Shown piece after piece: positions 1 to 33,563 of a stretch of 33,575 bases of DNA. Below the pieces are notes generated by a model that was not told the origin of the DNA, did no database searches, and saw only the letters and a list, made by a program, of their open reading frames with translations. This DNA is from a virus. The stretch covers positions 1-33,575 of the IMG/VR virus record IMGVR_UViG_3300037502_000552, one strand, 5' to 3'. Position 1 is the stretch's first letter; each line of letters begins with the position of its first letter. A program made the translations under genes and the position numbers.

Positions 1-12
1 AGCCGCGTTACC
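1..12. repeat. Left copy of 12-bp terminal direct repeat (probable cos end)
   Basis: The sequence AGCCGCGTTACC here is repeated exactly as the last 12 bases of the window. When the ends are joined the 12-mer is flanked by TGCG (33560-33563) and CGCA (13-16), a perfect inverted repeat. Lambda-type terminases cut staggered nicks at a partly twofold-symmetric cosN to make 12-base overhangs. Filled-in overhangs would give exactly this terminal repeat. A chance assembly overlap or a prophage attachment core is the alternative. Confidence 0.75.
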
Positions 13-54
13 CGCATCCTAGTAACAAGTTGGAAGGACCCAACACCGGGGGGC

Positions 55-660
55 CTACCGGAGTCCTCGTCCCACCAAAGATTTGATTGCTCGACCGAAT
101 TCGAGAGGGAATCGCTCGTTCACTATTCTCTGCACCATCTCGTCTAGTTTGTGTTGACGCTTGGCGGTTGGGACATAGGGTCCAAACAGTTTCTTGATGG
201 GCAGTTCGGGTCGGTAGGTCTTGCCCACATTCTTTCCGGTCATAACTTTGCGCTTGGCTCCCCTCCGTCCACCGATAAGGATGAAAACATCGCGCTTTGA
301 GTTGGGCATGGTGGCGATGAATGCGCCTTGATACCGTTGCTTCTTCCCCCATGCTTTGACAGTCACCCCGGTCTTGCTTTGCACCGCGCCCATTTGGTAG
401 AGACTTGCCGACTTCTTGGCGAAATAGATTTCGTAATACTCACGATTCTTTGTCGCCTTCTTCTCGATTATGTATTCGCTTCGCTTGAAGTCCGCAAGAC
501 TCATATTGAAGTCTTTGCGAATCTCCCTGCGTGATTGGCTTGCCGCCGTTGCGCCAACCCTGTTGAGGGCTCGGACTGTTGCCTGTGGAATAAACTTTTT
601 CTCAAGATAGTCCACTTGTCTGGACAAGTCCTTGAGGTTGGACTCGACCGAGATTCTCAT
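55..660 (-). CDS. GpZ-like minor tail / tail completion protein
   Basis: The 201-residue basic protein resembles the prophage minor tail protein Z family. Family members help complete the tail end that meets the head, as gpZ does in lambda. Recognisable parts are an N-terminal alpha-helical stretch containing ALNRVGATAASQSRREI (about residues 31-47) and a central region ending in FILIGGRRGAKRK. The ATG at 660 overlaps the stop of the upstream winged-helix gene as ATGA, so the two are probably translationally coupled. In lambda, Z sits among the head-tail joining genes. Here it is the last gene before the cos junction, on the far side of the map from the tail module unless the genome is circular. 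It would then lie about 280 bp upstream of terS and could belong to the late transcript. The family call is from sequence appearance only. Confidence 0.72.
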   Translation of the reverse strand: MRISVESNLKDLSRQVDYLEKKFIPQATVRALNRVGATAASQSRREIRKDFNMSLADFKRSEYIIEKKATKNREYYEIYFAKKSASLYQMGAVQSKTGVTVKAWGKKQRYQGAFIATMPNSKRDVFILIGGRRGAKRKVMTGKNVGKTYRPELPIKKLFGPYVPTAKRQHKLDEMVQRIVNERFPLEFGRAIKSLVGRGLR

Positions 661-860
661 ACGCTCAAGCGGTAACAGTATGCGGTCTTTGGCCCCTTGC
701 CTGATCTGTCGATCCGATCCCGGGCGACCATTCCATTCTTGACCATTGCGACCAGAGCGACCTTGACTGCCCCCCTGTTAACTCCAGTCGATCCCGCAAT
801 CTCTGTCGAGGTCTTAGGCCCTGTCTTGAGTTGCTCTAGGATTTGCTCACGCACCGTCAT
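657..860 (-). CDS. Small winged-helix DNA-binding protein
   Basis: This 67-residue protein starts MTVREQILEQL and carries a helix-turn-helix with a short wing: TSTEIAGSTGVNRGAVKVAL at about residues 18-37, then NGMVARD. This is the pattern of small MarR/ArsR-like or DUF-type winged-helix proteins. I chose the ATG at 860, not an in-frame start near 902, because AAGGGG lies just upstream and the longer form would run through an intrinsic terminator. It lies between a promoter-terminator pair and the GpZ-like gene, so it may be a late regulator or a terminase/packaging accessory. Neither role is shown by the sequence. Confidence 0.68.
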   Translation of the reverse strand: MTVREQILEQLKTGPKTSTEIAGSTGVNRGAVKVALVAMVKNGMVARDRIDRSGKGPKTAYCYRLSV

Positions 861-874
861 TTCATACCCCTTAT

Positions 875-900
875 AAAAAAAGACCCGCGATTGGCGGGTC
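875..900 (-). terminator. Intrinsic terminator
   Basis: On the minus strand a 7-bp GC-rich stem (GACCCGC paired with GCGGGTC, loop of 5) is followed directly by seven T residues. It lies after the gene ending at 971 and before the winged-helix gene starting at 860. It is only about 40 bp downstream of a candidate promoter, so it may stop early transcription, attenuate late transcription, or both. Confidence 0.85.
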
Positions 901-948
901 AAACAGGCTCGGTGGCCTGAAGGAGAGACACCAATCTATCCGCAAACA

Positions 949-976
949 ATTGTAACAGTAAGACAAACAATCACAA
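949..976 (-). promoter_or_regulatory. Candidate sigma70-type promoter (possible late promoter)
   Basis: On the minus strand TTGTGA (971-976) and TACAAT (949-954) are separated by 16 bp. The -35 overlaps the stop codon of the zinc-ribbon gene. Transcription would start near 942 and meet the terminator at 875-900 within about 40-65 nt. The leader contains a small hairpin CAGGC-CACCGA-GCCTG. The -10 matches 5 of 6 consensus bases and the -35 only 4 of 6, so this is a moderate prediction. Confidence 0.45.
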
Positions 977-1138
977 TCCCCCACGGTTTTTAATGCAGTC
1001 CGCACAAATCCATCGCGTCCGGTTATGGGAGCGCACCGCTTTCAGTTTCCCGCCCTCTATCGGCCTTTCCTTCTGGCAATGAGTGCAGAATCGCTTGCCC
1101 GTCAGACCTTGGACTGTTTTGGTTAGTTTCCTGTTCAA
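971..1138 (-). CDS. Small zinc-ribbon protein
   Basis: The protein is basic, about 55 residues, with two CxxC knuckles: CTHC at about residue 17 and CADC near the C-terminus, 26 residues apart. This fits a treble-clef or zinc-ribbon fold. The chosen TTG at 1138 overlaps the upstream stop as TTGA and has a GGTGG-like sequence before it. An upstream TTG at 1165 would add nine residues but overlap the previous gene by 31 nt. Its place immediately upstream of a promoter-terminator pair is where lambda carries its antiterminator Q. No Q homology is visible, so a regulatory role is only a positional guess. Confidence 0.6.
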   Translation of the reverse strand: MNRKLTKTVQGLTGKRFCTHCQKERPIEGGKLKAVRSHNRTRWICADCIKNRGGL

Positions 1139-1443
1139 GATACATCCACCACCCTTTCGACCCAATATCTTCCCTTCTTATGCCATCCAATGACCCAGAG
1201 AGCCCATCCAGCGTCCCGCAATGTTCTCAGGTGAGGCGAGTCCTCGATCTTATGTATCCGCGCACTCATGTTCGAGTAACTGGTCGCTTGGACCCCGAGC
1301 GTCGTTCCGTCCTTAAGGGCGACGATGTCGATAAAGCCAAAGAGGTCTTTGCGAATGTTTGCACCGGGAATCCACTTTTCGACCACCTCTGCCGTCCATC
1401 CTTCTCGGCGGAGCTTGCGGAGTGTGAGTTCGGTTGGGCTCAT
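1135..1443 (-). CDS. Small PD-(D/E)xK-like nuclease candidate
   Basis: The 102-residue protein has the layout RREGW...VEKWIPG....RKDLFGFIDIVAL..GTTLGVQATS, followed by HLRTLRDAGW and a tryptophan-rich C-terminus. It resembles small resolvase-like PD-(D/E)xK proteins seen in phages: the D of FGFIDIVAL would be the metal-binding acid. The usual E-x-K is replaced by Q-A-T (GVQATS), as in some degenerate or variant members, so catalysis is uncertain. The ATG at 1443 overlaps the stop of the 28-codon gene as ATGA. No Shine-Dalgarno sequence is visible, so translation probably depends on coupling. A Holliday-junction or recombination-intermediate role is inferred from the neighbourhood. Confidence 0.55.
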   Translation of the reverse strand: MSPTELTLRKLRREGWTAEVVEKWIPGANIRKDLFGFIDIVALKDGTTLGVQATSYSNMSARIHKIEDSPHLRTLRDAGWALWVIGWHKKGRYWVERVVDVS

Positions 1444-1526
1444 ATCGCAAACAGTTTATTACATGGCGAACAGTATTTCCTACCCGCCGCCTTGCGAATC
1501 TTGCGGGCGCATCTCTTACAGGTCAT
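1440..1526 (-). CDS. 28-residue CxxC-CxxC microprotein
   Basis: This short frame starts MTCKRCARKIRK and ends with YCSPCNKLFAI. It is a very basic peptide with two CxxC pairs 13 residues apart, enough to bind one zinc ion. Its ATG overlaps the upstream HNH stop as ATGA, and its own TGA overlaps the next gene's ATG as ATGA. It thus fills the interval between the two genes exactly, which is strong positional evidence for a real coupled gene. The frame is open further upstream inside the HNH gene, with an alternative TTG preceded by AGGAG, so a longer form is possible. The function is unknown; small zinc knuckles of this sort often bind nucleic acid or a partner protein. Confidence 0.55.
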   Translation of the reverse strand: MTCKRCARKIRKAAGRKYCSPCNKLFAI

Positions 1527-1807
1527 CCACGCAAACTTATTCTCTCCGTCTTTAATAACGCACCAATTGTTTCGTTTAACACCGACTGCTCTGTTTTCTT
1601 TAACACATTCCAAATTGCTCTCCTGCCATGTATTCCATTGTGACTACCTTGGTGACAATCCTTGCATAGTGGTATGCATAAAAAATGCAAACCTTGTTCT
1701 ATATGGTGAGCATCACTTGGGCCAAGAGCCCCACAAACACCGCAGTTCATTTGCTTAACTGATAAGAGGTGCTTGCGTTGAGCTGAAGTAAGATTTTTAC
1801 TATTCAA
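1523..1807 (-). CDS. HNH nuclease, Ref-like
   Basis: The 94-residue protein has CGVCG, then DAHHI, then PLCKDCHQGSHNGIHG: a zinc-bound HNH (beta-beta-alpha-metal) nuclease core. The layout resembles the phage P1 Ref family, RecA-dependent HNH nucleases acting in recombination. The N-terminal segment KNLTSAQRKHLLSV precedes the first Cys pair as in relatives. The start is a TTG at 1807 overlapping the end of the upstream gene; an ATG at 1750 would remove this segment. It sits in the recombination/replication block, which supports a role in DNA processing, but an ordinary homing-type HNH cannot be excluded. Confidence 0.72.
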   Translation of the reverse strand: MNSKNLTSAQRKHLLSVKQMNCGVCGALGPSDAHHIEQGLHFLCIPLCKDCHQGSHNGIHGRRAIWNVLKKTEQSVLNETIGALLKTERISLRG

Positions 1808-2396
1808 TTTTTTCTATCTTCCCCAAAGCTAACCAGCGAGAAATTGTTGACTTTGAAACATTCATAGCTTTTGCAACATCTGAGGCAATCATTTTTTTGC
1901 CTTGATAAAGAACCCAAATGTTTGTTGATCTGTTTTGAGCCTGTTCTCTCGCGGTGGCCCAGCGAACATTGCCGGGGAAATAGCCTTTGTTGTTGTCAAT
2001 CCGATCAATTGAATGTTTTTCACTAGGCGGTTGACCAACATCTGCCGCAAAGTTTTCATATGTTAACCATTCGTTGCAAACAGTAATTCCGCGACCACCG
2101 TATCTATGAAAATGCGTTGATGTCGGCAAAGTTGTGCGTTCTACTATGCCCCTCCAAGTTCTCCACAATTTAGTCTCCGTCTCTCCATGTCTAAAATTTA
2201 AGACCTTCATTCTTGAAGAACAATTTTTTCTCCTAAGACATCCACAAGATTTGCTATTGCCTTTTTTTAGATTGCCAGACAAAACTCTTGTTTCTTTGCC
2301 GCACGAACATCTACAAAGATAAATTTTTTGCTTGTCTTTGCTTGTTCCGCTTCGCTCTAAAACTGTGAGCTCTCCATAAACATTTCCGATCATCAT
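1800..2396 (-). CDS. HNH-like/homing-type endonuclease with C-terminal helix-turn-helix
   Basis: The protein is 198 residues from the ATG at 2396. The N-terminus GNVYGELTVLERSG with CRCSCG and KSCGC is a zinc-binding module. The centre has HG.T.T..W..W, then RYGGRGITVCNEW and SIDRIDNNKGYFPGNVRWAT, typical of a widespread phage HNH-related family. The C-terminus (about residues 168-198) is a helix-turn-helix, ASDVAKAMNVSKSTISRWL. The start has a strong AAAGGAGG six bases upstream. The gene is visibly richer in A+T than its neighbours and has a TATAAT just upstream, as expected of a selfish mobile gene with its own expression. It probably cuts DNA and spreads as a free-standing homing endonuclease. 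Confidence 0.75.
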   Translation of the reverse strand: MMIGNVYGELTVLERSGTSKDKQKIYLCRCSCGKETRVLSGNLKKGNSKSCGCLRRKNCSSRMKVLNFRHGETETKLWRTWRGIVERTTLPTSTHFHRYGGRGITVCNEWLTYENFAADVGQPPSEKHSIDRIDNNKGYFPGNVRWATAREQAQNRSTNIWVLYQGKKMIASDVAKAMNVSKSTISRWLALGKIEKIE

Positions 2397-2416
2397 TGCC
2401 TCCTTTGTTGGTTGCA

Positions 2417-2422
2417 ATTATA
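2417..2422 (-). promoter_or_regulatory. Perfect -10 hexamer before the HNH-like gene
   Basis: TATAAT on the minus strand lies 20 bp before the ATG at 2396, in a 47-bp AT-rich gap. No TTGACA-like -35 is present at 16-18 bp, so this may be a weak or factor-dependent promoter, or chance. Confidence 0.3.
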
Positions 2423-2446
2423 CATCGTAGTTTCATCTTTTGCGGA

Positions 2447-2599
2447 CTATTTCGAGGAGCCGTTTTGATCTAAACAATAGACCTCCCGAAACTCCTCCCA
2501 CCTCTCATCTGCGTCGGCCTCGTTGGTTTCGTCCTCGTCTCGCGCTTGCGGTTCGGTCGTCTGGATTTGGTCATAGAAGTCAGTCCCGTGTTTGCTCAT
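2447..2599 (-). CDS. Small acidic hypothetical protein
   Basis: A 50-residue protein starting MSKHGTDFYDQIQ, rich in acidic residues in its middle (EPQARDEDETNEADADERWEE). The ATG at 2599 has GGGAGA six bases upstream and follows the previous stop by 10 bp, so it is well placed in the operon. A longer reading to 2836 in the same frame is out of phase with the zinc-knuckle gene covering that stretch and is not supported. I do not recognise the family. Short acidic phage proteins may be DNA mimics or inhibitors, but nothing here shows that. Confidence 0.6.
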   Translation of the reverse strand: MSKHGTDFYDQIQTTEPQARDEDETNEADADERWEEFREVYCLDQNGSSK

Positions 2600-2609
2600 G
2601 TTCTCTCCC

Positions 2610-2846
2610 TTAAGCGTAATTTTGTTTGATCCGCGCCCGTCGTTTGCAAACCTTCTCGCATCCGCAATGGGGCTCATCTTGCCATCCAGTCGTGTCGCCC
2701 CACTTGTCCAGCATTCCCTCGACCATCTGTTTGCGGATGACCTTGCATGGCTCCGAGAGCGCAATGGCCCGACGACAGTCCGGGCAGGCGATGTTGAAAA
2801 GCCCTCCATACTCGGTCCCACGATTTTGGCATTCAAGACAGTCCAC
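2610..2846 (-). CDS. Small zinc-binding protein
   Basis: The 78-residue protein is cysteine-rich: CLEC near residue 3, CPDC at about residue 21, and a later HCGCEKVCKRR. The first two pairs form a rubredoxin/zinc-ribbon-like pattern. The start is GTG at 2846 with AAGGA nine bases upstream, overlapping the end of the previous gene by 14 nt. It belongs to a run of small zinc-binding proteins downstream of the replication genes, comparable in position to the small nin-region genes of lambda. No precise function can be assigned. Confidence 0.65.
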   Translation of the reverse strand: MDCLECQNRGTEYGGLFNIACPDCRRAIALSEPCKVIRKQMVEGMLDKWGDTTGWQDEPHCGCEKVCKRRARIKQNYA

Positions 2847-3180
2847 CTTTGATTTCCTTGAGAAGGGTTGACATCACTCGATGATAGTGGAATGAGGGGA
2901 ATCCGCGCTCATCCACGGTCATATTTCCCAAATTGACCGCCTTGCCTGCCCGCAAGTCTGGTCGGCCCTTCTTGATCGCCACCCCGTCGAATACCAAATG
3001 ACCGTCTCTCAGAGTCTCTGCGGCGAGTATTAGTTCGAGGTTGCGCCTGAGTCGAGCGGTAATCTCATCGTTCTCTCGCGAGGTCTTGCCGTAGTGGAAT
3101 CGGCAGTAGTAGGTCGCCCCTTCCCCGTTGGAAGATGAGATAGTGCCTTCGAGAGGGCATCCGTGCGCTGGACAGTTCAT
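2833..3180 (-). CDS. Hypothetical protein with zinc-binding N-terminus
   Basis: The 115-residue protein begins MNCPAHGCPLEG and continues with YYCRFHYG, so C/C/C/H residues near the N-terminus could bind zinc. The remainder is alpha/beta with FHYHRVMSTLLKEIKGG at the end. The ATG at 3180 overlaps the upstream stop as ATGA and has AAGGAG eight bases before it; a GTG six bases earlier is less likely. Proteins with this CPxHGCPL...CRFH start occur downstream of phage replication initiators, which fits this location. The biochemical role is unknown. Confidence 0.65.
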   Translation of the reverse strand: MNCPAHGCPLEGTISSSNGEGATYYCRFHYGKTSRENDEITARLRRNLELILAAETLRDGHLVFDGVAIKKGRPDLRAGKAVNLGNMTVDERGFPSFHYHRVMSTLLKEIKGGLS

Positions 3181-3536
3181 TTCCACATCTCCTTCATTGC
3201 CTGCTTAAACCGTTTGTAAGCCTCCTGCCTGCGTTGCATCGCCTCTGGCCCATCGCCCAAGTCTTGAGGGGGTGAGATTGCAATGCGTTGCGTGGGCTCG
3301 ATTTGTGTTGCGGGGGCCTTCCAACAGACCTCTTTGAATTGAGTTGCGTTGGGTGGATGTTCAGGGAGATTCTTGAGCGCAAACATTATCTGCCCCGGAG
3401 TCACCGTCCCAAGATATTCCCGCCACTCATTCATCACCATAGACTGGTCCAAGACTCCCCATTTCCGATTCCACGCTTCCCCGTAGTGAATGTTCAATTT
3501 GACCCAGAGTTGTTCCATTTGCATTTGATTGAGCAT
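3177..3536 (-). CDS. Lambda P-like helicase loader candidate
   Basis: The 119-residue protein has the layout LWVKLNIHYGEAWNRKWG, then MNEWREYLGTVTPGQIMFAL, then LPEHPPNATQFKEVCW, and a charged C-terminal helix. This matches the N-terminal region of phage replication protein P-type proteins, which deliver the host DnaB helicase to the initiator at the origin. It directly follows the initiator gene as P follows O in lambda, but the two frames overlap by 110 nt, far more than usual. The ATG at 3536 has GAGGAAC eight bases upstream. It is shorter than lambda P (233 residues), so it may be a minimal loader. Confidence 0.62.
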   Translation of the reverse strand: MLNQMQMEQLWVKLNIHYGEAWNRKWGVLDQSMVMNEWREYLGTVTPGQIMFALKNLPEHPPNATQFKEVCWKAPATQIEPTQRIAISPPQDLGDGPEAMQRRQEAYKRFKQAMKEMWK

Positions 3537-4299
3537 TTTTTAAGTTCCTCATTGTCTTGCTGACCAATTCCAAGTTTTGCATTCGAGTCTTGTCGAGAGC
3601 ATCCCGCAAGGTTTTGCTCTCCCGTACCCATTCCGCTTGGAATGAGGCCCATCCCCTCTCGCAACAGGTCTTTATCGCCTGATCTAAAGTCATCCCGGCC
3701 TGATTCGCTTGGTTTCTTATGCCGTCAATGGCGGTCTTTGTTGGAGCCGCTCTTTTGGCTTTCCTGACCGCAACCCAATCAATCGCCGTTTGCTCATTGA
3801 CCCCTTGATCGACAAGATAAGAAACAGGATCAAAACGCGGAGCGTTTGGTTTTTTCTTCCCTTCCTTTCCCTGTTCCCTGTTCCCTGTTCCCACCTGAAC
3901 CTCTCCAGTATCATTCCCGGAGGATTCCGGGAGTTCTATCGGAATTGTCGTGTATTCGATTGGGGCATCGATCATTGGCTTGATTTTGCTGGGATTTTTC
4001 TTGCTTATGACCTGATGCTTCTCAAAGTTGACAATGTGACCGTATCGCTTTCCATCAAGACCGACATAGAGCTCTATGTATCCAATCAGATACAGGTCAT
4101 TCAAGAGCGAATCAGTTGTCTTGCTTAGCTGTCTCAATGGGAATACATCCGATTCAATGAGCTTGGGGTTTGCGTTGAAATATCCCTGATCGTCGGCATG
4201 ATTGAGTAGGCCAATCGCCAACAAGGTAGCCTCTGGACACAAAGACGATAAATCCTCGTCCCTCCAAAATTCTGGTTTGATTGTGCGAATCCTAGCCAT
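3427..4299 (-). CDS. Replication initiator / replisome organiser (lambda O-like role)
   Basis: The 290-residue protein begins MARIRTIKPEFWRDEDLSSL and continues with ATLLAIGLLNHADDQGYF, the N-terminal winged-helix layout of a large family of phage replication initiators. A basic low-complexity linker (about residues 137-160) is encoded by a tandem DNA repeat. The C-terminal part has helices of the type GMTLDQAIKTCCERGWASF, which in relatives contacts the loader or helicase. The ATG at 4299 has GGAG at ideal spacing and overlaps the HNH stop by 8 nt; upstream in-frame ATG (4311) and TTG (4332) lack a good ribosome site. By analogy with O it would bind origin repeats within its own gene. Confidence 0.7.
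   Translation of the reverse strand: MARIRTIKPEFWRDEDLSSLCPEATLLAIGLLNHADDQGYFNANPKLIESDVFPLRQLSKTTDSLLNDLYLIGYIELYVGLDGKRYGHIVNFEKHQVISKKNPSKIKPMIDAPIEYTTIPIELPESSGNDTGEVQVGTGNREQGKEGKKKPNAPRFDPVSYLVDQGVNEQTAIDWVAVRKAKRAAPTKTAIDGIRNQANQAGMTLDQAIKTCCERGWASFQAEWVRESKTLRDALDKTRMQNLELVSKTMRNLKNAQSNANGTTLGQIEHSLRGSVESEMGSLGPVYGDE
3868..3892. repeat. 7-bp tandem repeat in initiator gene (candidate origin)
   Basis: TCCCTGT occurs three times in tandem plus a partial fourth copy. On its left (3850-3872) is a 23-base uninterrupted pyrimidine run on the + strand. It lies in the coding linker of the initiator. Lambda and relatives place origin iterons inside O, so this is the best origin candidate. 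The 7-bp unit is short for iterons and could simply be a slippage-prone low-complexity linker. Confidence 0.45.
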
Positions 4300-4674: not shown

Positions 4675-4748
4675 GGAGGTCAGCCCCTTTTTGAGGGTTA
4701 GATTCGGTCAGATAGACCAGCCCGATAGAGACTGACTTTCTGACCTCC
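4675..4748 (-). other. Structured intergenic element with 9-bp inverted repeat
   Basis: GGAGGTCAG (4675-4683) and CTGACCTCC (4740-4748) are perfect complements 56 bp apart. Between them are GTCAG/CTGAC (5 bp) and a CCC-TCAAAAA-GGG hairpin, so the minus-strand RNA could fold into a three-way junction. The 5' arm of the closing stem contains AGGAGG, which would be hidden when folded. There is no U-tract, so it is not a normal terminator. It may control translation of the HNH gene downstream. Confidence 0.4.
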
Positions 4749-4775
4749 TATGCGCTTTCCACGGCGCGAGGTCAT
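4698..4775 (-). CDS. Possible 25-residue basic peptide
   Basis: The ATG at 4775 has GAGG six bases upstream and follows the previous stop by 7 bp. The peptide starts MTSRRGKRIGGQKVSLYR and ends after 25 residues. It overlaps the inverted-repeat element, so it could be a leader peptide whose translation opens that structure. The support is only the ribosome site and spacing. Confidence 0.25.
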   Translation of the reverse strand: MTSRRGKRIGGQKVSLYRAGLSDRI

Positions 4776-4782
4776 TTTAACC

Positions 4783-5028
4783 TCAGAATGGGATGTCCGA
4801 GGGAATATCTGGGAAAGTTTCTTCCCTGCGAGCTCCTGCCTGCGGCCTGTCATCCTTGGGCCTTGGGTCCGCAAGAGTAAACCATTGCGGGAAAAGGTCG
4901 AGCTTCATCGCCAGATTGCCATTTGGTTTCTGAATAACGATCCCGCATTTGGCCCATCTCTGCTTGGTCTGCCCGTCCGGGGTTTGATACTCGCCTGTTG
5001 CGACCAGAATCTCTTTGTAAACACTCAT
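4783..5028 (-). CDS. Small conserved protein beside the exonuclease (possible ssDNA-binding role)
   Basis: The 81-residue protein starts MSVYKEILVATGEYQTPDG and has a beta-rich core (RWAKCGIVIQKPNGNLAMKLDLFP). The C-terminal tail is proline- and charge-rich and ends DIPSDIPF. A short acidic tail ending in PF is typical of single-strand DNA-binding proteins that dock partners, and the core length is close to a minimal OB fold. It follows the YqaJ-type exonuclease with an ATGA overlap. An SSB-like role is inference from the tail and neighbours; no family was recognised with certainty. Confidence 0.6.
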   Translation of the reverse strand: MSVYKEILVATGEYQTPDGQTKQRWAKCGIVIQKPNGNLAMKLDLFPQWFTLADPRPKDDRPQAGARREETFPDIPSDIPF

Positions 5029-5678
5029 AGTTCCACCATTTCCCTTCTCGTTATCACCTCGAACATGGCCTCGATCTCCGCAAGAAAATCCTTGGCCTCT
5101 TTTTCTACTGCCTCGATTTGCGCGTCGCTCGGATAAAACCGCCGCACAAACAATCTCTGCTCCTCCGGGAGCCTTGGGTCAAAGCTCACAAAGTCGCACC
5201 ATCCCCTTTGCGTGACCGCGCATTGGAGGGTCATCTGGTCAATATGCTCCTCTGGGATTCCTCCGTCGATCACCCATTGCAAGTGCGTCGCCGTCGTCGG
5301 GCATTTGATCTCGATAAGCCCGTCTCCCACTAACCCGTCCGGGGAGGCCCCTAGAAACTCGATAGAAGGGTGCTGGACGAATCCGACATCTGTGACCTTC
5401 CGACCCGTTGCGGCCTCGTATGCGGCCTTTGCGTTGGCCTCCTGATCGGTTCCCCATTGCATTGCGGCGGTGACATATTTGGGAACAATATCCCCGGTCA
5501 TTCTCTCCGCAAGAATTTCGATCTTGAGGTTGCGACGCTCGCTTGAGTCCTCCCCGTTCTTGAGCCGTTTGCGACTTGCCCGCATCCTGCTCCCGGTTAG
5601 GTGTCCGCATCGGGCGTTGAACCATGCCCCATTCAATTGGTGCGGGTTACTCTGCCGTTCCTCTTGGAAATCACTCAT
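5025..5678 (-). CDS. YqaJ/lambda-exonuclease-like recombination nuclease
   Basis: This 217-residue protein has the YqaJ-family core: WFNARCGHLTGSR (about 19-31), MQWGTDQEANAKAAYE (73-88) and FLGASPDGLVGDGLIEIKCP (108-127). D114, E123 and K125 form the PD-(D/E)xK metal site. Family members such as lambda Exo degrade one strand from double-strand ends, and the exposed strand is used by an annealing protein. The ERF protein encoded upstream is the likely partner, giving a Red-like pair. The ATG at 5678 has GGAGG seven bases upstream and overlaps the previous stop as ATGA. Length is close to lambda Exo (226). Confidence 0.88.
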   Translation of the reverse strand: MSDFQEERQSNPHQLNGAWFNARCGHLTGSRMRASRKRLKNGEDSSERRNLKIEILAERMTGDIVPKYVTAAMQWGTDQEANAKAAYEAATGRKVTDVGFVQHPSIEFLGASPDGLVGDGLIEIKCPTTATHLQWVIDGGIPEEHIDQMTLQCAVTQRGWCDFVSFDPRLPEEQRLFVRRFYPSDAQIEAVEKEAKDFLAEIEAMFEVITRREMVEL

Positions 5679-6653: not shown

Positions 6654-7204
6654 TTGAGCCGCTCCTTGGCCTCGTCCTTGAGGTCTAGGCATACCGTCCG
6701 CTCCTCGGGCGTGAGCGTCCCCCAGAGGGTTTTGAGGTCATTCAGAGAGGTGAGTCCCGCAAAGACATTCGAGAGGGTCTTGAGACGCTCTGGGTCCACG
6801 GTCTTAGCCTTGGGTTTGGGAGGTGCGCTTGCGGCCTGATTGCCGTCGTCGTCCTCCGGGGCCACGCCAAATGCCGCGCTCAGAGAATAGCGTCGAGCAT
6901 AGGTCATCGCCGAGCCGAATCCCTGCGCGTCGTTCTTGGAGACCGGGACCGCGACCACTCCCGCGGACATTGTTTCCCCAGAGGCGTGGACGATGACCGT
7001 CTCGATTGCCGCGTGGTCCGGGATGTTATGTGAGACCTGACAAAACCAGAGGCCATGTTTGGTGAGCGCGGGCTTGATTGCGTCCACCACATTGCCGAGG
7101 TCCGCATACTTGGTGCGGAAGTGCGGATTGGTCTTGTCTTTTACTGCTCCCTCGATCTCAGGGAATGCCGAGGCCATTGCCTTGGCGAGATTAGCTGAAG
7201 TCAC
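6650..7204 (-). CDS. ERF-family single-strand annealing protein
   Basis: The 184-residue protein has the ERF core: NPHFRTKYADLGNVVDAIKP (about 26-45) and GSAMTYARRYSLSAAFGVAP (97-116) followed by EDDDGN. ERF proteins anneal complementary single strands and, with a YqaJ-type nuclease, carry out phage recombination and circularisation. That nuclease gene lies about 1 kb downstream in the same operon. The start is a GTG at 7204 with GGAG eight bases upstream. The linker after residue 122 (SAPPKPKAKTVDPERL) leads to a short helical C-terminal domain, possibly for protein contacts. Confidence 0.88.
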   Translation of the reverse strand: MTSANLAKAMASAFPEIEGAVKDKTNPHFRTKYADLGNVVDAIKPALTKHGLWFCQVSHNIPDHAAIETVIVHASGETMSAGVVAVPVSKNDAQGFGSAMTYARRYSLSAAFGVAPEDDDGNQAASAPPKPKAKTVDPERLKTLSNVFAGLTSLNDLKTLWGTLTPEERTVCLDLKDEAKERLK

Positions 7205-7301
7205 TTGCGAGTCTCCTTGCGATTCTGAATGAATGTTTGCGTCCGAAACCTAAAGCCCGATACGCCCGATAGTGCCGCCAAAAGTAAATGATCCACTTCA
7301 T
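7191..7301 (-). CDS. 36-residue basic aromatic microprotein
   Basis: The frame starts MKWIIYFWRHYRAYRALGFG and continues with a basic helix to RRLASDFS. The ATG overlaps the stop of the preceding small membrane protein as ATGA, and its 3' end overlaps the ERF start by 14 nt. It thereby fills an otherwise empty 93-bp gap. Small proteins with a WxxYYRAYRALG-like N-terminus and basic tail occur in phage early regions, from memory. It could be an amphipathic membrane-surface peptide. The evidence is the tight coupling and composition. Confidence 0.5.
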   Translation of the reverse strand: MKWIIYFWRHYRAYRALGFGRKHSFRIARRLASDFS

Positions 7302-8007: not shown

Positions 8008-8051
8008 GTGAAAACAGTATAAACCTATTTTCGGGAAAGTGCAAACAGTAT
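8008..8051 (-). promoter_or_regulatory. Operator-like direct repeat over the promoter
   Basis: Two 13-mers, ATACTGTTTGCAC (8039-8051) and ATACTGTTTTCAC (8008-8020), differ at one base and are 31 bp apart, three helical turns. One covers the -35 and the other the -10. The arrangement suits a dimeric regulator, but the ACTGTT core also recurs in coding sequence, so it could be partly chance. Confidence 0.4.
8016..8044 (-). promoter_or_regulatory. Sigma70-type promoter for the early operon
   Basis: On the minus strand TTGCAC (8039-8044) and TATACT (8016-8021) are separated by exactly 17 bp. Both are close to consensus (4/6 and 5/6). Transcription would start near 8009 and run through the small protein, lipoprotein, ERF and replication genes. 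It is the best promoter seen in the window. Confidence 0.7.
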
Positions 8052-8311: not shown

Positions 8312-9264
8312 ACCTCCTCGCCTCGGAAGTAAGCCTTGCCCGCAATAACCTCGCAGATTTCTGGGTGCAAGAGTTTGCCGTCCTTAAAGGTCAAAACGAC
8401 GAACCCAGAGGCCCACGGGACGGGATTGCCCTCCAGATACGCAAAAGACTCGTGATCGGGCTCCGCAAGAGTTCCTGAGTCCACGCCGTACCGCCGCCCA
8501 TCGTAATCGCCCCACGGGGTTATCTGGAGTTTGTGGAGATGGCCTGTAACGATATTGCGGCCTGATTTAAGGGTGTTGTTGTAGGTCGCATGGATTCCGT
8601 TGTGCCATCTGTGCTTGATGATCGTGTCTTTGTTGATCTCTAAAAGATATCCATGCCTCCAGCCGGGGAAATAGTCAAAAATGTCCGTTCCGGGCAGGCC
8701 AGAGACCTCCGGGGAGTTGACCCGGATATAACGCCATAGCCGCGTGTCGTGATTGCCATAGAGCCAGATCAAGGCCGAGCGGGAAGCCTTCTCGATCTCT
8801 CCGAGCCTCTCCATGCAAACATCGAGCTCCTGCTTAACCGAGGGCGGGTCGATCCCGTAGAGAGGGTCGTGGCGGGAGATTCGAGCCCCGTCGAGAACAT
8901 CGCCATTCAAGACCACGGCCTTGGGCTTGAGCTTCTTAATAACTCGAATGAGGGCTTGATGCGCCACCGTTGGCTCTCCGGGCCAATAGTGACAATCAGA
9001 GGCCACCACCACCGTCCCATTGGGACACTCAAAGTCGAGTTTCTTGGGGGCCATTGTCCGGACAGAGCGGTCCAGTTTGAGAGCGTCCGGGGAATTGTGG
9101 GATTGATGGGAGACCAGACTGATCCCCCTTTTTGCCTCTATCTTGCGGCGACGCAGATATACGCCCCGCACACTCAATCCGGTCGCCTTGGAGATTTTCT
9201 CTGGAGACCCGTAAAGGTGGAAAAGCTCGATTAACTTCTCGTCACTTACTCTTTGCGCGGACAT
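8308..9264 (-). CDS. Metallophosphoesterase with N-terminal helix-turn-helix
   Basis: The 318-residue protein has an N-terminal DNA-binding-like helix-turn-helix (SPEKISKATGLSVRGVYLRRR, about 20-40). A calcineurin-like phosphoesterase domain follows, with SDCHYW (D90, H92), NGDVLDG (D122), YGNHD (N171-H172-D173), HRWHNG and TGHLHK (H242, H244). The dimetal ligands are all present. Substrates in this superfamily range from nucleotides to DNA ends and proteins, so specificity is unknown. The ATG at 9264 overlaps the Ntn-hydrolase gene by 23 nt. HTH-plus-phosphoesterase proteins are common in phages beside lysis or structural genes. Confidence 0.85.
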   Translation of the reverse strand: MSAQRVSDEKLIELFHLYGSPEKISKATGLSVRGVYLRRRKIEAKRGISLVSHQSHNSPDALKLDRSVRTMAPKKLDFECPNGTVVVASDCHYWPGEPTVAHQALIRVIKKLKPKAVVLNGDVLDGARISRHDPLYGIDPPSVKQELDVCMERLGEIEKASRSALIWLYGNHDTRLWRYIRVNSPEVSGLPGTDIFDYFPGWRHGYLLEINKDTIIKHRWHNGIHATYNNTLKSGRNIVTGHLHKLQITPWGDYDGRRYGVDSGTLAEPDHESFAYLEGNPVPWASGFVVLTFKDGKLLHPEICEVIAGKAYFRGEEV

Positions 9265-9676
9265 TCGGAACCCTCATTGTTTCGATTGGGCCACCAGTTC
9301 CGGGGTCGTAAAGCATCGCAATCTCGACCGCCTCCTGCGGAGATTTCCCGAGGTGCATTGCCGCAACCGCATAGGGAGCCCCGGTTCCAATAGCCCAGAA
9401 TCGTTCTTTAATAGGGAATGCCAATAAAGACCCGTCATACACATAGAGCGAGTCTTTCCTCAGTTCTAAAACGGTGACATCGCATTCCCCCTCGATCTCA
9501 CCGTTTGCCTCAAGTGCCGCATAAAACTTGAGAATCTGCTCCCAAGTGCCTGCCGCCCCAAATGCGCTCTGCGGTCCAGCCCTGAGTTTGTGAACATTAA
9601 ACATCCACCCGTCGGTTGAGCAACGGGAGTCGGCGGCGATCATTTGATGGTCCAAAGATGCCGCAATCGTTGTCAC
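9242..9676 (-). CDS. HslV/proteasome-like Ntn hydrolase
   Basis: The 144-residue protein starts MTTIAAS. Removal of Met would leave a Thr nucleophile at the N-terminus. The family landmarks follow: AADSRCS (D16), HKLRAG (K30) and FGAAGT (about 39-44). Proteasome beta/HslV proteins use Thr1, Asp17, Lys33 and a GxxG turn, so the catalytic set is present, although the protein is shorter than HslV (about 175). No partner unfoldase is encoded here. The GTG at 9676 overlaps the endolysin stop as GTGA, and GGAGGG lies nine bases upstream. It may process structural proteins or act with host factors; that is inference. Confidence 0.75.
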   Translation of the reverse strand: MTTIAASLDHQMIAADSRCSTDGWMFNVHKLRAGPQSAFGAAGTWEQILKFYAALEANGEIEGECDVTVLELRKDSLYVYDGSLLAFPIKERFWAIGTGAPYAVAAMHLGKSPQEAVEIAMLYDPGTGGPIETMRVPNVRAKSK

Positions 9677-15259: not shown

Positions 15260-15952
15260 TTAAGCGAAATCAACAATAGAAGCAAAGACCGTGAAGGTCG
15301 CTGAACCAGTCTTAACAATTACATAAGTGTAAGCATCAATGCTACTTGCGTTTCCTGCGGTCGGGGCCGAGCCTCCTTGCCACTTAGGAGTAACAGCATT
15401 TCCGTCTACTTGGAAAGCAGAGTTGTAGTAAGCAGTCGAACCTTGCGTGACCAAGAAAACTACAGTCAGAGATTCACCCGTTGCCATCATAGTGTTAAGC
15501 GAAGTCCCAGAATCACCTCGGACATTCAGCGTCCAGTTTCCAGAAGCATTGGTCGTGTAGTAAAGCGCACCTTGGGTCAGAGCATCAAAGTTAATCGTTC
15601 CCGTTGCCGCAGTTGCAGACACCGTGATCTTCTCTAATACTTCCTCGATCTTTGTGGTCGTGCCAAAGGTTTGTTTTGCGGTAAAGGTTTGAGCGACATT
15701 TTTGACCGCGATATTCGACAGATCATTGGTCTGGTCGAGTTGAAACAATGTGATCCATGCGTCGTTATCTGCATTCCTTACTTTGACCACGCTTGGGTCT
15801 GAGGCCGTGTCTACCCAGATCATGTGCGCGAAGGTCGTGGACGGTGCGGTCGCGCTTGAGTTGTTGGAAACAATCGCCGCAAGTGCGTCGTTTAGGTCCG
15901 AGCGAAATGCCGGGAATCCTTGGTTTGCGATCACATAGTCATGCGTAGCCAT
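15260..15952 (-). CDS. Tail fibre protein
   Basis: The 230-residue protein starts MATHDYVIANQGFPAFRSDL with NDALAAIVSNNSS, an N-terminal segment found at the head of many phage fibre proteins. It then has IWVDTASDPSVVKVRNADND and a beta-rich C-terminal region with TATGTINFDALTQGALYYTT and VFLVTQGSTAYYNSAF. It probably joins the tail tip to the large glycine-rich protein. The ATG at 15952 has GGAG five bases upstream and follows the tail-tip gene by 11 bp. No enzymatic motif is visible. Confidence 0.78.
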   Translation of the reverse strand: MATHDYVIANQGFPAFRSDLNDALAAIVSNNSSATAPSTTFAHMIWVDTASDPSVVKVRNADNDAWITLFQLDQTNDLSNIAVKNVAQTFTAKQTFGTTTKIEEVLEKITVSATAATGTINFDALTQGALYYTTNASGNWTLNVRGDSGTSLNTMMATGESLTVVFLVTQGSTAYYNSAFQVDGNAVTPKWQGGSAPTAGNASSIDAYTYVIVKTGSATFTVFASIVDFA

Positions 15953-15963
15953 ATCTGCTCCTG

Positions 15964-24400: not shown

Positions 24401-24600
24401 GTGCGTTTTGTCAGTTTGGGTTGCTCCGAAGCCTCAACCTCGACCACCCTGTTCACGATTGGGGCCGTGTCGCCGTCATACTTCTTGGCCTTGTTACGCC
24501 CGATCAGCCACGATGCGTCTGCGTCTTTGACCTCGATAACATCGCCAACATCGCGATGGTGACCGTCCCAATGGACCGCGCTAGTGATTTCAACCTTCAT
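24376..24600 (-). CDS. Small hypothetical protein in the glycan cassette
   Basis: The 74-residue protein starts MKVEITSAVHWDGHHRDVGD and has VIEVKDADASWLIGRNKAKK, with a basic tail KLTKRTWKKKDSE. The N-terminal pattern resembles a small SH3-like phage protein often near head-tail genes (xVGDVIEVxxxxAxWLIxxxKA). The ATG at 24600 has GGAGG seven bases upstream and overlaps the previous stop as ATGA. It may be a structural connector, unlike its enzymatic neighbours. The function is unknown. Confidence 0.66.
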   Translation of the reverse strand: MKVEITSAVHWDGHHRDVGDVIEVKDADASWLIGRNKAKKYDGDTAPIVNRVVEVEASEQPKLTKRTWKKKDSE

Positions 24601-25130
24601 TGATGCACCTCCTTTAATCGTCCAGAAACAAAGTGTATACGCTCTGGGTGGCGCATTCCACCAATAAATTCCTTCCATCGCCTCAGATCATCTCGGGCCG
24701 AGATATGTTTTGCATGGAATGGCTCAGATTGCGGACCCTGCCACCAATACTCCCGGCCCCCATAATCGGTGTATTGGTCCATCCCGCAAACATATATTGT
24801 CTCGAAGCCCATCTGATCCGCGCACCAAACCGCAAGGCCCCCAGAGAACCCAATTGGCGGGCATTCCCCGGCGTGTATTACATCCCCCTGCTTCCAATGA
24901 GAGAGGTTTGTGATCTTCTTAATATCCCGAAACCCGCCGACATAATTCCACATATGGCGGTCGCAGAAGGCCAAATAATCAAGCGGCAGTATAAGTGAGT
25001 GCTGATTGACCCCCATCAAAATATCGACTTGGGGGATCGCCCGTAGGTCCACGGGCAACATAACGCCACCGCCCAAGACCGCGCAAGTCTGGCCTTTGTG
25101 GTGGTCTTTGTATTGAGAGATTCTGTCCAT
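24597..25130 (-). CDS. DUF115-like/glycosyltransferase-related protein
   Basis: The 177-residue protein has GQTCAVLGGGVMLPVDLRAI (about 13-32) and VDILMGVNQHSLILPLDYLA, a Rossmann-like start seen in DUF115-type (6-hydroxymethylpterin-kinase-like or sugar-related) proteins. It continues with PPIGFSGGLAVWCADQMGFE and IYVCGMDQYTDYGG. The ATG at 25130 directly abuts the T-run of the terminator, and no ribosome site is visible between hairpin and start. Translation or transcription may therefore depend on readthrough. A role in surface sugar synthesis is plausible from the adjacent enzymes. Confidence 0.65.
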   Translation of the reverse strand: MDRISQYKDHHKGQTCAVLGGGVMLPVDLRAIPQVDILMGVNQHSLILPLDYLAFCDRHMWNYVGGFRDIKKITNLSHWKQGDVIHAGECPPIGFSGGLAVWCADQMGFETIYVCGMDQYTDYGGREYWWQGPQSEPFHAKHISARDDLRRWKEFIGGMRHPERIHFVSGRLKEVHQ

Positions 25131-25178: not shown

Positions 25179-26441
25179 TTAGGCGGTCGTCACATCCTTA
25201 ATTGCGGCGAAGGACTCGGCGTGGCGAACCTTAACATCGACCTCTTGGAAGGCGGCGATGCGGATGGTTCCTGCGCTCGATCCGGTATAGGGATCGACCA
25301 GAACATCTGGCGAGTTCCACATACCGATCATCAGGTCGCTGAAGTTACCGAAGATAACTGCCGAGCAAACACCGCTCGAAGTTCCCTTGGTGAGGTCAGA
25401 CGGGACCAGAGTCGTCGAGGCCACATTGTAGCCGAGCAACACATTGGTGTCGTTGAGGATGAAGTTGCCCTCAACACCGCTCGTCTGGCGGGGACGGTTA
25501 CGCATTGCGGCGACCACTTTGGGGTTGGTCAAGAATGCGAGATTGCCCATCAGAGCATTGTCGATTGCGACTTCACGCTCAAGGTTGACCAGCGAGGCGA
25601 AAGTGATTGCGCCACCGTTGGTTCCGATTGCGACCGAGCCGATCCCGTTGGTTCCGAGGATACCCGTTGGCTCATTTGCGCCGCCGCCCTCGATTGCCAC
25701 CTCGTCGATCTTGCGAGCAAACGACTGGAGAATGTCCTCGCGGATGATCTGCTCAACCGAGGGGTCAGACTGAATCGCCAGTTTGCGCGAAATGTCGGTG
25801 AAGGAGGCCAGAGTCTTGGGAGACATGGTCACTTGGGTGAAGGTCTGAGCGGACTCGGAGGGAGCGGAGTTCTCACCAACGAAGGCCACGGTCGAGCCAG
25901 TTCCCATCTTGGGGATCGCAACATCGCCCTTAAGACCAGTCATCATCCGGGCTCCGAGATTGCCGATCACCAGATTGGCACGGAGGCGGTCGATAAACTC
26001 GCCAGCCATGTAGTCCTCGGCGATGATGTTCGAGCCATTTGCGGGAGAAGTCGTGAGAATGTCGCGCTTGGCGAATACGCTCATCGGGACGAAGAAACCG
26101 CGAGCCTGCTTGCCTGTGTTGCGGGCAATCTCGTCGGAAACCTCGGCCTCATAGCCAGTCACGCGACCATGCTTGGCGATAGAGTCAATGGCGCGCAGGA
26201 GCGAGTAACGCTTCTGCTCGGTCTTGGTCATCTCAACATCGGGGGCGTGGAGGGGTTTGTCGAGGTTGCGCTCCAAGAGGAAACCTTGGAATTCACCATA
26301 AGACATTCCACGCTCAATGGCTTGAGCGACTAGGTTGGTTTTGTTGTGGCGAGCGGCAAGTTCGCTGATCTGCTTGAGTTCAGCATTGCGCTTTGCGATT
26401 GCGGCCTCTGCGGTGACCGCGCCCGTGTTTTCTTGAGACAT
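25179..26441 (-). CDS. Possible separately initiated major capsid protein
   Basis: The in-frame ATG at 26441 starts MSQENTGAVTAEAAIAKRNA. It is preceded by AAAGGAAC with four bases to the ATG, a believable ribosome site. It would give a 420-residue capsid without the protease. The first 100 residues or so are the helical delta region (NAELKQISELAARHNK), followed by the HK97 core (for example VIFGNFSDLMIGMWNSP near the end). The product could supply extra capsid, while the full-length fusion supplies the protease. This is a prediction from the ribosome site alone. Confidence 0.45.
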   Translation of the reverse strand: MSQENTGAVTAEAAIAKRNAELKQISELAARHNKTNLVAQAIERGMSYGEFQGFLLERNLDKPLHAPDVEMTKTEQKRYSLLRAIDSIAKHGRVTGYEAEVSDEIARNTGKQARGFFVPMSVFAKRDILTTSPANGSNIIAEDYMAGEFIDRLRANLVIGNLGARMMTGLKGDVAIPKMGTGSTVAFVGENSAPSESAQTFTQVTMSPKTLASFTDISRKLAIQSDPSVEQIIREDILQSFARKIDEVAIEGGGANEPTGILGTNGIGSVAIGTNGGAITFASLVNLEREVAIDNALMGNLAFLTNPKVVAAMRNRPRQTSGVEGNFILNDTNVLLGYNVASTTLVPSDLTKGTSSGVCSAVIFGNFSDLMIGMWNSPDVLVDPYTGSSAGTIRIAAFQEVDVKVRHAESFAAIKDVTTA

Positions 26442-27797
26442 TTCAGTTCCTTTCGGGTTTGAGATTACTTCTATAACGGGTTGCGAAGTCATCGCCGACC
26501 GACCCACGCCAACCGACGGGTCGGCGGGAATAGATACGACGGAAACCTCTAGTGGTTGCCACGAAGTGGCCCGATAGACTTTGCCATCGGACTCCCGCGT
26601 GACCTTTTTGACATAGTAGCCAATACTCACATTGCCGCGAATACCGTCTACTACATCATCGTAAACCTCGCTCGCCCGTCCGTTTTTTCCAAAACGCACC
26701 GTAGCCCGTAACTTGCGGGCAGACTCATCGAGGGTTACAGATTCGACGACCCCAATCTGTTGAGTGGGATCATGGTCCAGCAGGAGCGGAGCCCTGCCAG
26801 AGTTGAGGAAACTCAGATCAATGCTGGAGGCCGAGTGGTCGAGAATCTCCATCCCGCCCATGCGCTCCACCGGGAGTTCGCTAGAGATTGCCATGCGGAC
26901 CCGACGCTCATCTTCAATCACGGGCTCCATGCTATCGGCCCGCAGAGTCAGGGGTTGGCCCTTGCGGTCGCCATAAGAATTCTCGATCAATTCGACCTCA
27001 ATCTCGTCCTCGACCATTTCCTCGACAAGTTCCTCTGCCTCGGGCATTTCAGCCTTGGCAAACTCGACGACGAAACTGTTTTCGGTTTCGGTCACGGCGA
27101 CAATATGTCTTTGCTCTTGATCCATAGTTTCTGCCTTTCCTTTTCCGGATATTAAGGCCGATTTATTTGTTTGGTCTAGGTCTTGAGAACGAAGATCATC
27201 AATCTTGGTCAGAGTCGAAAACTTATGTCCGACCAAAGTATCGGTCGCCGCCCATCCGTCCTCGCCCTCGCGATATAGCCGAATCAGGGCCGCAGGATCA
27301 TCCGGTGAGCCTGTGATCTCGAAGTCAGATTCGGGGACATTGATAGTCCCGTCGCGCTCGATTCTCTCGATCCGACCTCTTGCCCTGCCGCCGGGGTTGT
27401 CCCAAGAAACAAAGTCACCGACCGCAAGTGCGTCCGGTGCGGCCCGATCCTGATTGTCTGCGGTTTCCATTCTGCTTACCCTTTCGTTTGCCCAAGACTC
27501 GCCGGGATCACCACCCCATAAAGCCCAAGCGATTCGCCCTGCGGATGGATAACCCTCCTCGCCGGGACTGAAACCTTCTGCCTGCTTATCTACTGCATGG
27601 CGCGCAAAGAACGATGCCATGCGTCGGACGGTATCCAGACTAAGTTCTCGACGATTTGCAAGGTCTCGGGCGCGAGCGACTCCAACCTCCGTGCCACCTC
27701 GTCCAAACTCAGCGCGCCAGTCGAGACCGCGTTGAGCCTCCTCTGCCATCGCCTCGGTCGGTTTTGTATCAATCTCGATCCCTTTGTAAGTCGCCAT
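25179..27797 (-). CDS. Prohead protease-major capsid fusion with N-terminal Tudor-like region
   Basis: The 872-residue protein combines several parts. Residues 1-110 carry SLDTVRRMASFFARHAVDKQ and IAWALWGGDPGESWANERV. Residues about 124-180 carry a Tudor-like module with VGDFVSWDNPGGRARGRIER. Residues 295-435 are an S78 protease with LLLDHDPTQQ (H342), GNVSIGYYVKKV (S391) and WQPLEVSVVSIPADPSVGVG. Residues about 453-872 are an HK97-type capsid with KAIDEVAIEGGGANEPTGIL-like core elements. The protease would cut the scaffold and release capsid. The ATG at 27797 directly follows the upstream stop. Internal in-frame ATGs at 27470, 27125 and 26441 have Shine-Dalgarno-like sequences, so shorter products are possible. 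Confidence 0.86.
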   Translation of the reverse strand: MATYKGIEIDTKPTEAMAEEAQRGLDWRAEFGRGGTEVGVARARDLANRRELSLDTVRRMASFFARHAVDKQAEGFSPGEEGYPSAGRIAWALWGGDPGESWANERVSRMETADNQDRAAPDALAVGDFVSWDNPGGRARGRIERIERDGTINVPESDFEITGSPDDPAALIRLYREGEDGWAATDTLVGHKFSTLTKIDDLRSQDLDQTNKSALISGKGKAETMDQEQRHIVAVTETENSFVVEFAKAEMPEAEELVEEMVEDEIEVELIENSYGDRKGQPLTLRADSMEPVIEDERRVRMAISSELPVERMGGMEILDHSASSIDLSFLNSGRAPLLLDHDPTQQIGVVESVTLDESARKLRATVRFGKNGRASEVYDDVVDGIRGNVSIGYYVKKVTRESDGKVYRATSWQPLEVSVVSIPADPSVGVGRSAMTSQPVIEVISNPKGTEMSQENTGAVTAEAAIAKRNAELKQISELAARHNKTNLVAQAIERGMSYGEFQGFLLERNLDKPLHAPDVEMTKTEQKRYSLLRAIDSIAKHGRVTGYEAEVSDEIARNTGKQARGFFVPMSVFAKRDILTTSPANGSNIIAEDYMAGEFIDRLRANLVIGNLGARMMTGLKGDVAIPKMGTGSTVAFVGENSAPSESAQTFTQVTMSPKTLASFTDISRKLAIQSDPSVEQIIREDILQSFARKIDEVAIEGGGANEPTGILGTNGIGSVAIGTNGGAITFASLVNLEREVAIDNALMGNLAFLTNPKVVAAMRNRPRQTSGVEGNFILNDTNVLLGYNVASTTLVPSDLTKGTSSGVCSAVIFGNFSDLMIGMWNSPDVLVDPYTGSSAGTIRIAAFQEVDVKVRHAESFAAIKDVTTA

Positions 27798-32906: not shown

Positions 32907-33348
32907 TGAGTGCCTCTAGTATTGCCCCCTTCAAGACCGCTTTGACCTCGGTGAGGTTTTCTGCGGCAAACACCTCGGGGGAGGTCTTGGCTGGAATGCT
33001 CAACAATTTGGCCCGACAGTTTGCGACCAGTTCCGTCCATGTCTTTTCGATCTCCTCCATCTCGACCAGAGTCCCGCGCACCTTCTCCAGTTCGACCTCG
33101 GCGAGCGCGGCCTCTGCCGCCATCTTCCGACGCTTGGCCTCTTCAAGATCGATGAGGTCATCATTGCCAATCAGGTTGTCGAGGTTTCTGCGGTTAATCC
33201 ACGCAATCACCTCCGAGGTCTCATAGTCTGATCCAGCCCGACCGCGTCCTTTGCGGATCACCGGGAAGTCCGGATTCTTTTGCATCTGCGTTAACCACTC
33301 CTCAGATTTCCCGAGGATTGCCGCCAATTGGTTTTTGTTGACAATCAT
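32845..33348 (-). CDS. terS: Terminase small subunit (lambda Nu1-like)
   Basis: The protein is 167 residues from the ATG at 33348. It starts MIVNKNQLAAILGKSEEWLT, close to lambda Nu1 (MEVNKKQLADIFG). The N-terminal winged helix-turn-helix has FPVIRKGRGRAGSDYETSEV and a helical linker rich in EAKRRKMAAEAALAEVELEK. The C-terminal part would contact TerL. An in-frame start at 33402 would add 18 residues but lacks the Nu1-like beginning. Nu1 binds repeats next to cos; here the gene starts about 215 bp from the cos junction, as in lambda (about 190 bp). GAGA precedes the ATG. Confidence 0.9.
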   Translation of the reverse strand: MIVNKNQLAAILGKSEEWLTQMQKNPDFPVIRKGRGRAGSDYETSEVIAWINRRNLDNLIGNDDLIDLEEAKRRKMAAEAALAEVELEKVRGTLVEMEEIEKTWTELVANCRAKLLSIPAKTSPEVFAAENLTEVKAVLKGAILEALNELSDRDISPQGPESIQATA

Positions 33349-33563
33349 TCTCAATAAAAAACGGGCGATTTTTTTGGAGCAAAAACAAACAATTTCCCAC
33401 AATGCGAGATTGTTTGACTGTTTGAATCTTGCTCAAAGTTTGACCAGTTTTGCATCGTTGTAAGTGATTGATTTTGTTTGTAAATTTTTGCGTTGTTTTT
33501 GGGCGTTAGTTTTGCTCTATCAAAAGTCTTAAGTTGATCGTCTATCACTATCTGAAAATTGCG
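33349..33563 (-). other. Non-coding cos-adjacent region (candidate cosB)
   Basis: The 215-bp AT-rich interval between terS and the cos end has no convincing gene. GTTTGA occurs at 33412-33417, 33420-33425 and 33438-33443, extended as GTTTGACTG, GTTTGAATC and GTTTGACCAG. These are candidates for terminase-binding R sites; a bent AT-rich stretch (33470-33500) could bind IHF. Spacing and base composition match lambda's cosB role, but the repeats are unlike lambda's R sequences. Confidence 0.5.

Follow-up and report, generated by a model that had tools for sequence, protein, structure and literature searches.

The window, by which we mean the entire stretch of DNA analysed, is a 33,575-base virus record from an uncultured phage whose recognisable genes lie on the minus strand. 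Recombination and replication genes (ERF, a RecE-like exonuclease and an initiator) precede the locus described here and a GpZ-like gene follows it; the other end of the contig holds terS, terL, portal and capsid genes, with a holin and an endolysin at the far end. Along transcription, the junction encodes a 28-residue CxxC...CxxC mini-ribbon protein (1440–1526, on the minus strand like the locus features given below; 57 residues, 1440–1613, if read from TTG), a conserved 102-aa protein (1135–1443) and a 55-aa zinc-ribbon protein (971–1138). A promoter and a terminator come next, followed by the genes for a 67-aa winged-helix protein (657–860) and for the GpZ-like tail completion or neck protein (55–660, phrog_27). 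Elsewhere in the window, a predicted HslV-family peptidase (9242–9676; phrog_1040, E 2e-27) adjoins the lysis genes.

In contig L003, GpZ (4691–5314), a methylase-like ORF, a terS-like ORF (6734–7273) and terL form an uninterrupted run, which argues that the late block of the window continues across the contig ends, from GpZ to the small (32845–33402, phrog_57) and large (31086–32906, phrog_15) terminase subunits. The distance from the GpZ stop to the contig end, obtained by subtraction, is 50–54 nt in five contigs (the window, L100, L101, L102 and L107), which is what a cos end would give. Both observations agree with the initial annotation, in which winged-helix gene, GpZ-like gene, cos and terS were placed in this order on a circular genome.

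The promoter-like site and the terminator carry the letters and coordinates first assigned to them. The −35-like hexamer TTGTGA (971–976) overlaps the final codons of the gene for the 55-aa zinc ribbon and is separated by a 16-nt spacer from the −10 hexamer TACAAT (949–954), which is extended by TG at 957–956 and followed by TGTTTGCGG. Assuming a start 7 nt past the −10, +1 would fall near 942. The intrinsic terminator (875–900) is formed by a stem at 900–882 (GACCCGC-CAATC-GCGGGTC, −12.4 kcal/mol) and a U7 tract (881–875), with 14 nt from the U tract to the ATG of the winged-helix gene. The predicted terminated RNA is thus about 68 nt long, longer than the roughly 50 nt first proposed.

How far do these elements stand out from chance? 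By a strict rule (at least six pairs, at least five GC, at least six T of eight), the whole minus strand contains two terminators, where 100 shuffles have a mean of 0.12 and at most one, in line with the original description of this terminator as strong; a loose scan of positions 1–4000 showed no enrichment (six terminators found, 4.5 expected). The second strict terminator (25159–25136) lies behind the capsid gene (25179–27797), which is just upstream, and its U tract enters the ATG of the gene at 24597–25130. The promoter score, computed with matrices and a TG bonus of E. coli-like values, is the highest on the minus strand with the bonus (12.1) and the third without it. Shuffled sequences contain a mean of 1.3 sites scoring as high, and the loose scan of positions 1–4000 found three promoters for 3.3 expected, without enrichment. 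By itself, the promoter score is at chance level and proves nothing, so the promoter call leans on the comparison with relatives; the convincing point is the position of the putative promoter relative to the terminator, which is kept in these relatives. The second-best promoter score on the strand belongs to the −10 TATACT (8016–8021) of a likely early promoter, before the first early gene. Two further motifs were dropped: a direct repeat, ATTGTTTG, noted by eye around the −10 of the window with copies 21 bp apart, was not seen in L003 or L099, and CTGTTT, considered as an over-represented word, has near-equal copy numbers on the two strands (21 and 22).

Relatives of the locus were collected with the 102-aa protein as anchor, which returned 24 viral and 3 bacterial loci in a first pass and, starting from a 13-row alignment, 80 viral loci in a second. 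We defined clusters as loci sharing 12-mers within 400 nt behind the 102-aa gene, and the 79 sequences clustered (76 of the 80 viral loci, the bacterial L121 and L122, and the window, with L118, L181, L182 and L183 left out) gave 44 clusters. In 15 of them, window included, the 102-aa gene is followed by a homologous winged-helix gene. Weaker winged-helix matches, which we did not count, lie directly behind the 102-aa gene in L147 (2e-6) and L154 (4e-5) and about 0.8–1 kb off in L172 (1e-4) and L166 (2e-3).

A terminator ending 9–14 nt before the winged-helix start codon, with a promoter-like site upstream, is found in 12 of these 15 clusters (the window, L097, which corresponds to L003, L099, L103, L107, L128, L130, L109, L133, L112, L135 and L098). 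The terminator-less winged-helix clusters are L100, L126 and L131 (promoter present). Applied to the transcribed strand of the 15 winged-helix loci (138,477 bases), the strict rule yields 12 terminators, 11 of them right before the winged-helix gene; the twelfth is the capsid-side terminator of the window, and the stem of L107, with 5 bp, is too short for the rule. Stem sequences vary by lineage (GACCCGC/GCGGGTC, AGCCCGC/GCGGGCT, AAGCCTCG/CGGGGCTT, TGCCCAC/GTGGGCA), and what remains constant despite these changes is the hairpin, the U tract and the short distance to the start codon.

The promoter-like sites upstream of the terminators are less uniform. With the TG bonus, the site ranks first to fourth in its own locus for the window, L003, L103, L107, L112 and L098, and in L099, L109/L111, L129, L130, L133 and L135 the best site comes only 8th to 58th, depending on the scan version; the ranks of L129, L130, L133 and L135 partly refer to a neighbouring site, and the start-codon positions used for ranking are off by a few nt for some loci. 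Most terminator loci have TGTT or GTTT after the −10, as does the early promoter. L003 has the same gene order as the window, with terL 88%, the winged-helix protein 66% and the zinc ribbon 44% identical; its −10 TATAAT is followed by GTTTGCGG, and its terminator, GACCCGCCATTCGCGGGTC, is that of the window but for one loop letter. GTTTGCGG after the −10 is shared by the window, L003 and L099, and L099 also retains TAGACT and GGCCCGCTATTCGCGGGTC.

Several observations were made along the way in these relatives. In terminator-less lineages, a tRNA-Met gene separates the 102-aa gene from a TTGACA-type promoter (L100 and L101, 5307–5380 in each; L102, 769–842; L126, 5310–5382), and the promoter region of L131, before a winged-helix gene that starts at 952, contains a palindrome around GTATATTTAATAC, a possible operator. 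Among more distant relatives, L082 and L086 have a terminator before the small gene that comes ahead of GpZ, for which an ordinary explanation is possible; the same scan found none at this place before GpZ in L084, L085, L087, L088 and L089. Searching for prophage relatives with the winged-helix profile returned none of 399 genomes in one order and one of 288 in another, namely L121's own genome. L121, a contig of an Akkermansiaceae MAG, carries a phage early region with a decayed winged-helix gene, and its similarity to phage contig L107 ends close behind GpZ, near the expected phage end; it is a prophage remnant or an assembly join. Direct searches of viral contigs with the single small proteins returned nothing, or L003 only. 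The Roseobacter phages CRP-811 and CRP-823 are cultured TerL relatives, for which the analysis covered the gene tables.

What is the function of the promoter–terminator unit? Because the terminator lies so close before the first late gene, transcripts into the winged-helix and GpZ genes must cross it, barring downstream promoters. From the observed sequence, order and conservation we infer a start site, termination, read-through and the identity of an overriding factor, which together make up the scheme that we consider probable: an attenuated late promoter, similar to pR'-tR', that works without a sequence-recognisable Q and is overridden by a phage product. The promoter at about 976–949 would drive the late operon, and transcripts would normally stop at the hairpin (900–882), leaving the short RNA. 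Late in infection, a phage product would let RNA polymerase read through the terminator into the genes that lie past it and across the genome ends, whose predicted roles are in packaging, lysis and the building of head and tail. By position, the strongest candidate for this product would be the mini-ribbon, whose gene immediately precedes that of the 102-aa protein; alternatively, the winged-helix protein may feed back on its own operon.

A simpler view is that the terminator is the mere end of the early operon and leaks into the late genes, so that the promoter would be incidental and read-through unregulated. Consistent with this view, the early genes, which start behind the likely early promoter (8021), run toward the terminator, the promoter score is within the shuffle level and three winged-helix clusters have no terminator. 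However, it leaves unexplained why a promoter-like site is found upstream of the terminator in lineage after lineage, with no room between terminator and gene, and why this terminator is nearly the sole strong one in these loci. We regard this explanation as unlikely.

Which product could override the terminator of an attenuated late promoter? The initial annotation had seen no Q homologue, and indeed a PHROGs scan of 30 window proteins gave none, nor did a Q-like HMM find one near the locus. A Q-like gene follows the 102-aa gene in 8 of the 44 clusters, all eight lacking both the mini-ribbon and the terminator–winged-helix unit. Its best Pfam match (Phage_antitermQ, E 5e-4, in L115) is under the family cut-off and phrog_79 matches at 0.055, so "Q-like" is a weak label. 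In L142, L146 and L150, a terminator comes after the Q-like gene, with a U tract touching the next start codon (ATG).

A −10-like pause hexamer in the first transcribed bases is the loading signal of known Q proteins, and AlpA needs it too. The window has a possible hexamer of this type at +5 with four of six letters (TAGATT) and the other 11 terminator clusters have none; on this count, Q-type loading at a −10-like pause was put aside for the group, and the loading step probably differs from that of Q. The −35/−10 spacers of the window, L003 and L099, inspected by eye for a Q binding element, have no common element. Across lineages, the order of promoter, terminator and gene is retained and the Q-loading signal is not.

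Eleven of the 12 terminator clusters have the mini-ribbon gene directly ahead of the 102-aa gene, and the 32 others all lack it. Within the winged-helix clusters, this corresponds to 11 of 12 with a terminator versus 0 of 3 without (Fisher ~0.009, computed by hand and ignoring relatedness); the exception, L109, has the terminator and no mini-ribbon. In a tree of the 102-aa and winged-helix proteins, the three terminator-less clusters fall on one branch, and one or two changes suffice to explain the distribution of ribbon plus terminator. Thus, the link between the two is suggestive only and may be simple co-inheritance: the 28-residue protein, already put forward as a candidate, gains from its distribution, and this gain amounts to one or two events on the tree. 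Aligned mini-ribbons have four invariant cysteines and range from 28 residues in the window to ~60 in relatives, and searches of known families returned only weak zinc-finger or unknown matches.

The other initial candidate, the 55-aa zinc ribbon, fared less well. Its homologues at the locus are limited to the window, L003 and L099, that is, 3 of the 12 terminator clusters, and a ribbon similar to it (by eye) occurs elsewhere in L131, a terminator-less cluster; we set it aside as a general antiterminator. On position, the mini-ribbon would be the better candidate of the two. A published report describes a zinc finger in lambda Q (PMC9371919), which makes a zinc protein plausible in this role, no homology being implied. 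The AF2 model of the winged-helix protein (pLDDT 91.5) resembles ArsR/SmtB regulators and TFE-alpha, and this protein, the first encoded past the terminator, may regulate its own operon.

The predicted leader RNA (875–942) folds with −27.2 kcal/mol (z −3.7) and comprises a CU-rich, anti-Shine-Dalgarno-like stretch, TGTCTCTCCTTC (919–930), and a predicted hairpin, CAGGC-CACCGA-GCCTG (904–919), upstream of the terminator. The leaders of the window, L003 and L099 form three hairpins, the last being the terminator (z −3.3 to −3.7), and several lineages have the CU-rich stretch, one hairpin and the terminator in common; a MAFFT alignment of the leaders misaligns the hairpin of the window group. Many folds have the CU stretch sequestering the winged-helix ribosome-binding site in cis; this was rejected as a specific feature, since swapped pairs did as well as own pairs (P 0.99 over 13 rows, 0.82 over 9 groups). 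In L103, L112 and L098, the leaders share an extra 5' domain (GGGTGG..GCC ... GCC(A)..CCC) from the predicted transcript start, which may be a structured RNA in its own right.

Judged by model score, leaders from several lineages show a sub-threshold likeness to RF02278, the betaproteobacterial toxic sRNA with a double hairpin, a similarity that does not amount to family membership. The window leader scores 27.2 bits and those of its nearest relatives 17.6 (L003) and 16.4 (L099), against a gathering score of 50 bits. When eight loci (61 kb) were searched with Rfam at E≤2, RF02278 was found at the leader in six, with 27–31 bits, and the only other matches were two anti-hemB, at the same leaders. 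A faster, record-by-record search matched the leader in 12 of 16 terminator-bearing records (E 2e-6 to 0.015) and missed the window, L003, L107 and L109. As for controls, matches occur elsewhere in 5 of the 14 records that lack the unit (one of 27.3 bits), and at E≤1 in 10 of 14 control genomes. Full-score copies (61–73 bits) in two of three bacterial genomes searched indicate that the model works. Two RNA matches lie away from the late leaders or belong to other families: a 27.3-bit RF02278-like match at 15896–15955 of G066, the record of L126, and a Betaproteobacteria-1 RNA (RF02932, 61 bits, above cut-off) at 2570–2692 of L099, inside a phage contig.

This likeness suggests that the short RNA may itself act. 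According to published work, RF02278 RNAs inhibit growth when overexpressed (PMC4603805, PMC5688073) and their CU-rich regions are predicted to cover ribosome-binding sites (PMC5688073). The locus could then be an sRNA gene: its RNA, CU-rich and with a double hairpin, would target host or phage ribosome-binding sites in trans, with late read-through as a secondary matter. The recurrence of RF02278 matches at the leaders and this predicted covering of ribosome-binding sites speak for it, as does the precedent of StxS in Shiga-toxin phages, described as a terminated late leader acting in trans (PMC7873438). Against it, every match is under the gathering score, the nearest relatives of the window have the low scores given above, four terminator loci including the window were not returned per record, and records without the unit and control genomes match as well. 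We find this explanation improbable as the main function of the locus; as StxS illustrates, it is compatible with an attenuated late promoter. Finally, it is very improbable that the leader itself, as an attenuator, riboswitch or put-like RNA, sets termination versus read-through with no antiterminator protein. In favour of this, leader folds are better than those of shuffled sequences (z −1.6 to −3.7), L107 and L121 have overlapping alternative hairpins around the terminator, and L103, L112 and L098 have the extra 5' domain. Against it, the lineages do not all share any structure beyond hairpin and terminator, the leader of the window is short and the test of cis pairing by the CU stretch failed.

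The attenuated late promoter thus remains the reading that we favour. In its boldest form, the mini-ribbon would be a new, very small antiterminator and the terminated leader would double as an anti-Shine-Dalgarno sRNA imitating host RF02278-type RNAs, a combination that we consider quite unlikely. Our search of the literature, which covered mostly open-access sources, found no report of a Q-less late switch of this kind. A dozen uncultured-phage clusters, with no Q found at the locus, have this anatomy of the lambdoid type, and these phages may use an undescribed switch for virion production. If true, this would add an antitermination factor, possibly among the smallest, and explain late-gene timing in a group of environmental phages; the resemblance of several leaders to a growth-inhibiting family of bacterial sRNAs is a second lead.

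How does this locus compare with known systems? Like RF02278 RNAs, the window leader combines a CU-rich stretch, a hairpin and a terminator hairpin with U tract; unlike the published copies, reported as separate small RNAs, it scores below the family threshold and lies inside a phage late leader. StxS and the related dual case IsrK of Gifsy-1 (PMC4825925) are likewise terminated RNAs from a phage promoter, and the trans action described for them is a proposal for the window leader. At the alpB promoter of Pseudomonas aeruginosa, according to two reports, the non-Q DNA-binding antiterminator AlpA overrides a terminator (PMC7969949, PMC9371919). As in the window, that terminator lies directly upstream of the first gene; in contrast, the int-alpA RNA model scores 18 bits here for a cut-off of 35.8, and no AlpA-like protein was identified. 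Terminator-gated late promoters are well described in lambdoid phages with Q. The locus shares with pR'-tR' of lambda, 21 and 82 the promoter, the short leader, the intrinsic terminator and late genes reached across the genome ends, and there, too, the regulator is expected from the gene block just upstream. It differs from them in that no Q and no conserved −10-like pause element were found, in that a winged-helix gene comes first past the terminator, and in that the mini-ribbon gene lies in the region that holds Q-like genes in other phages.
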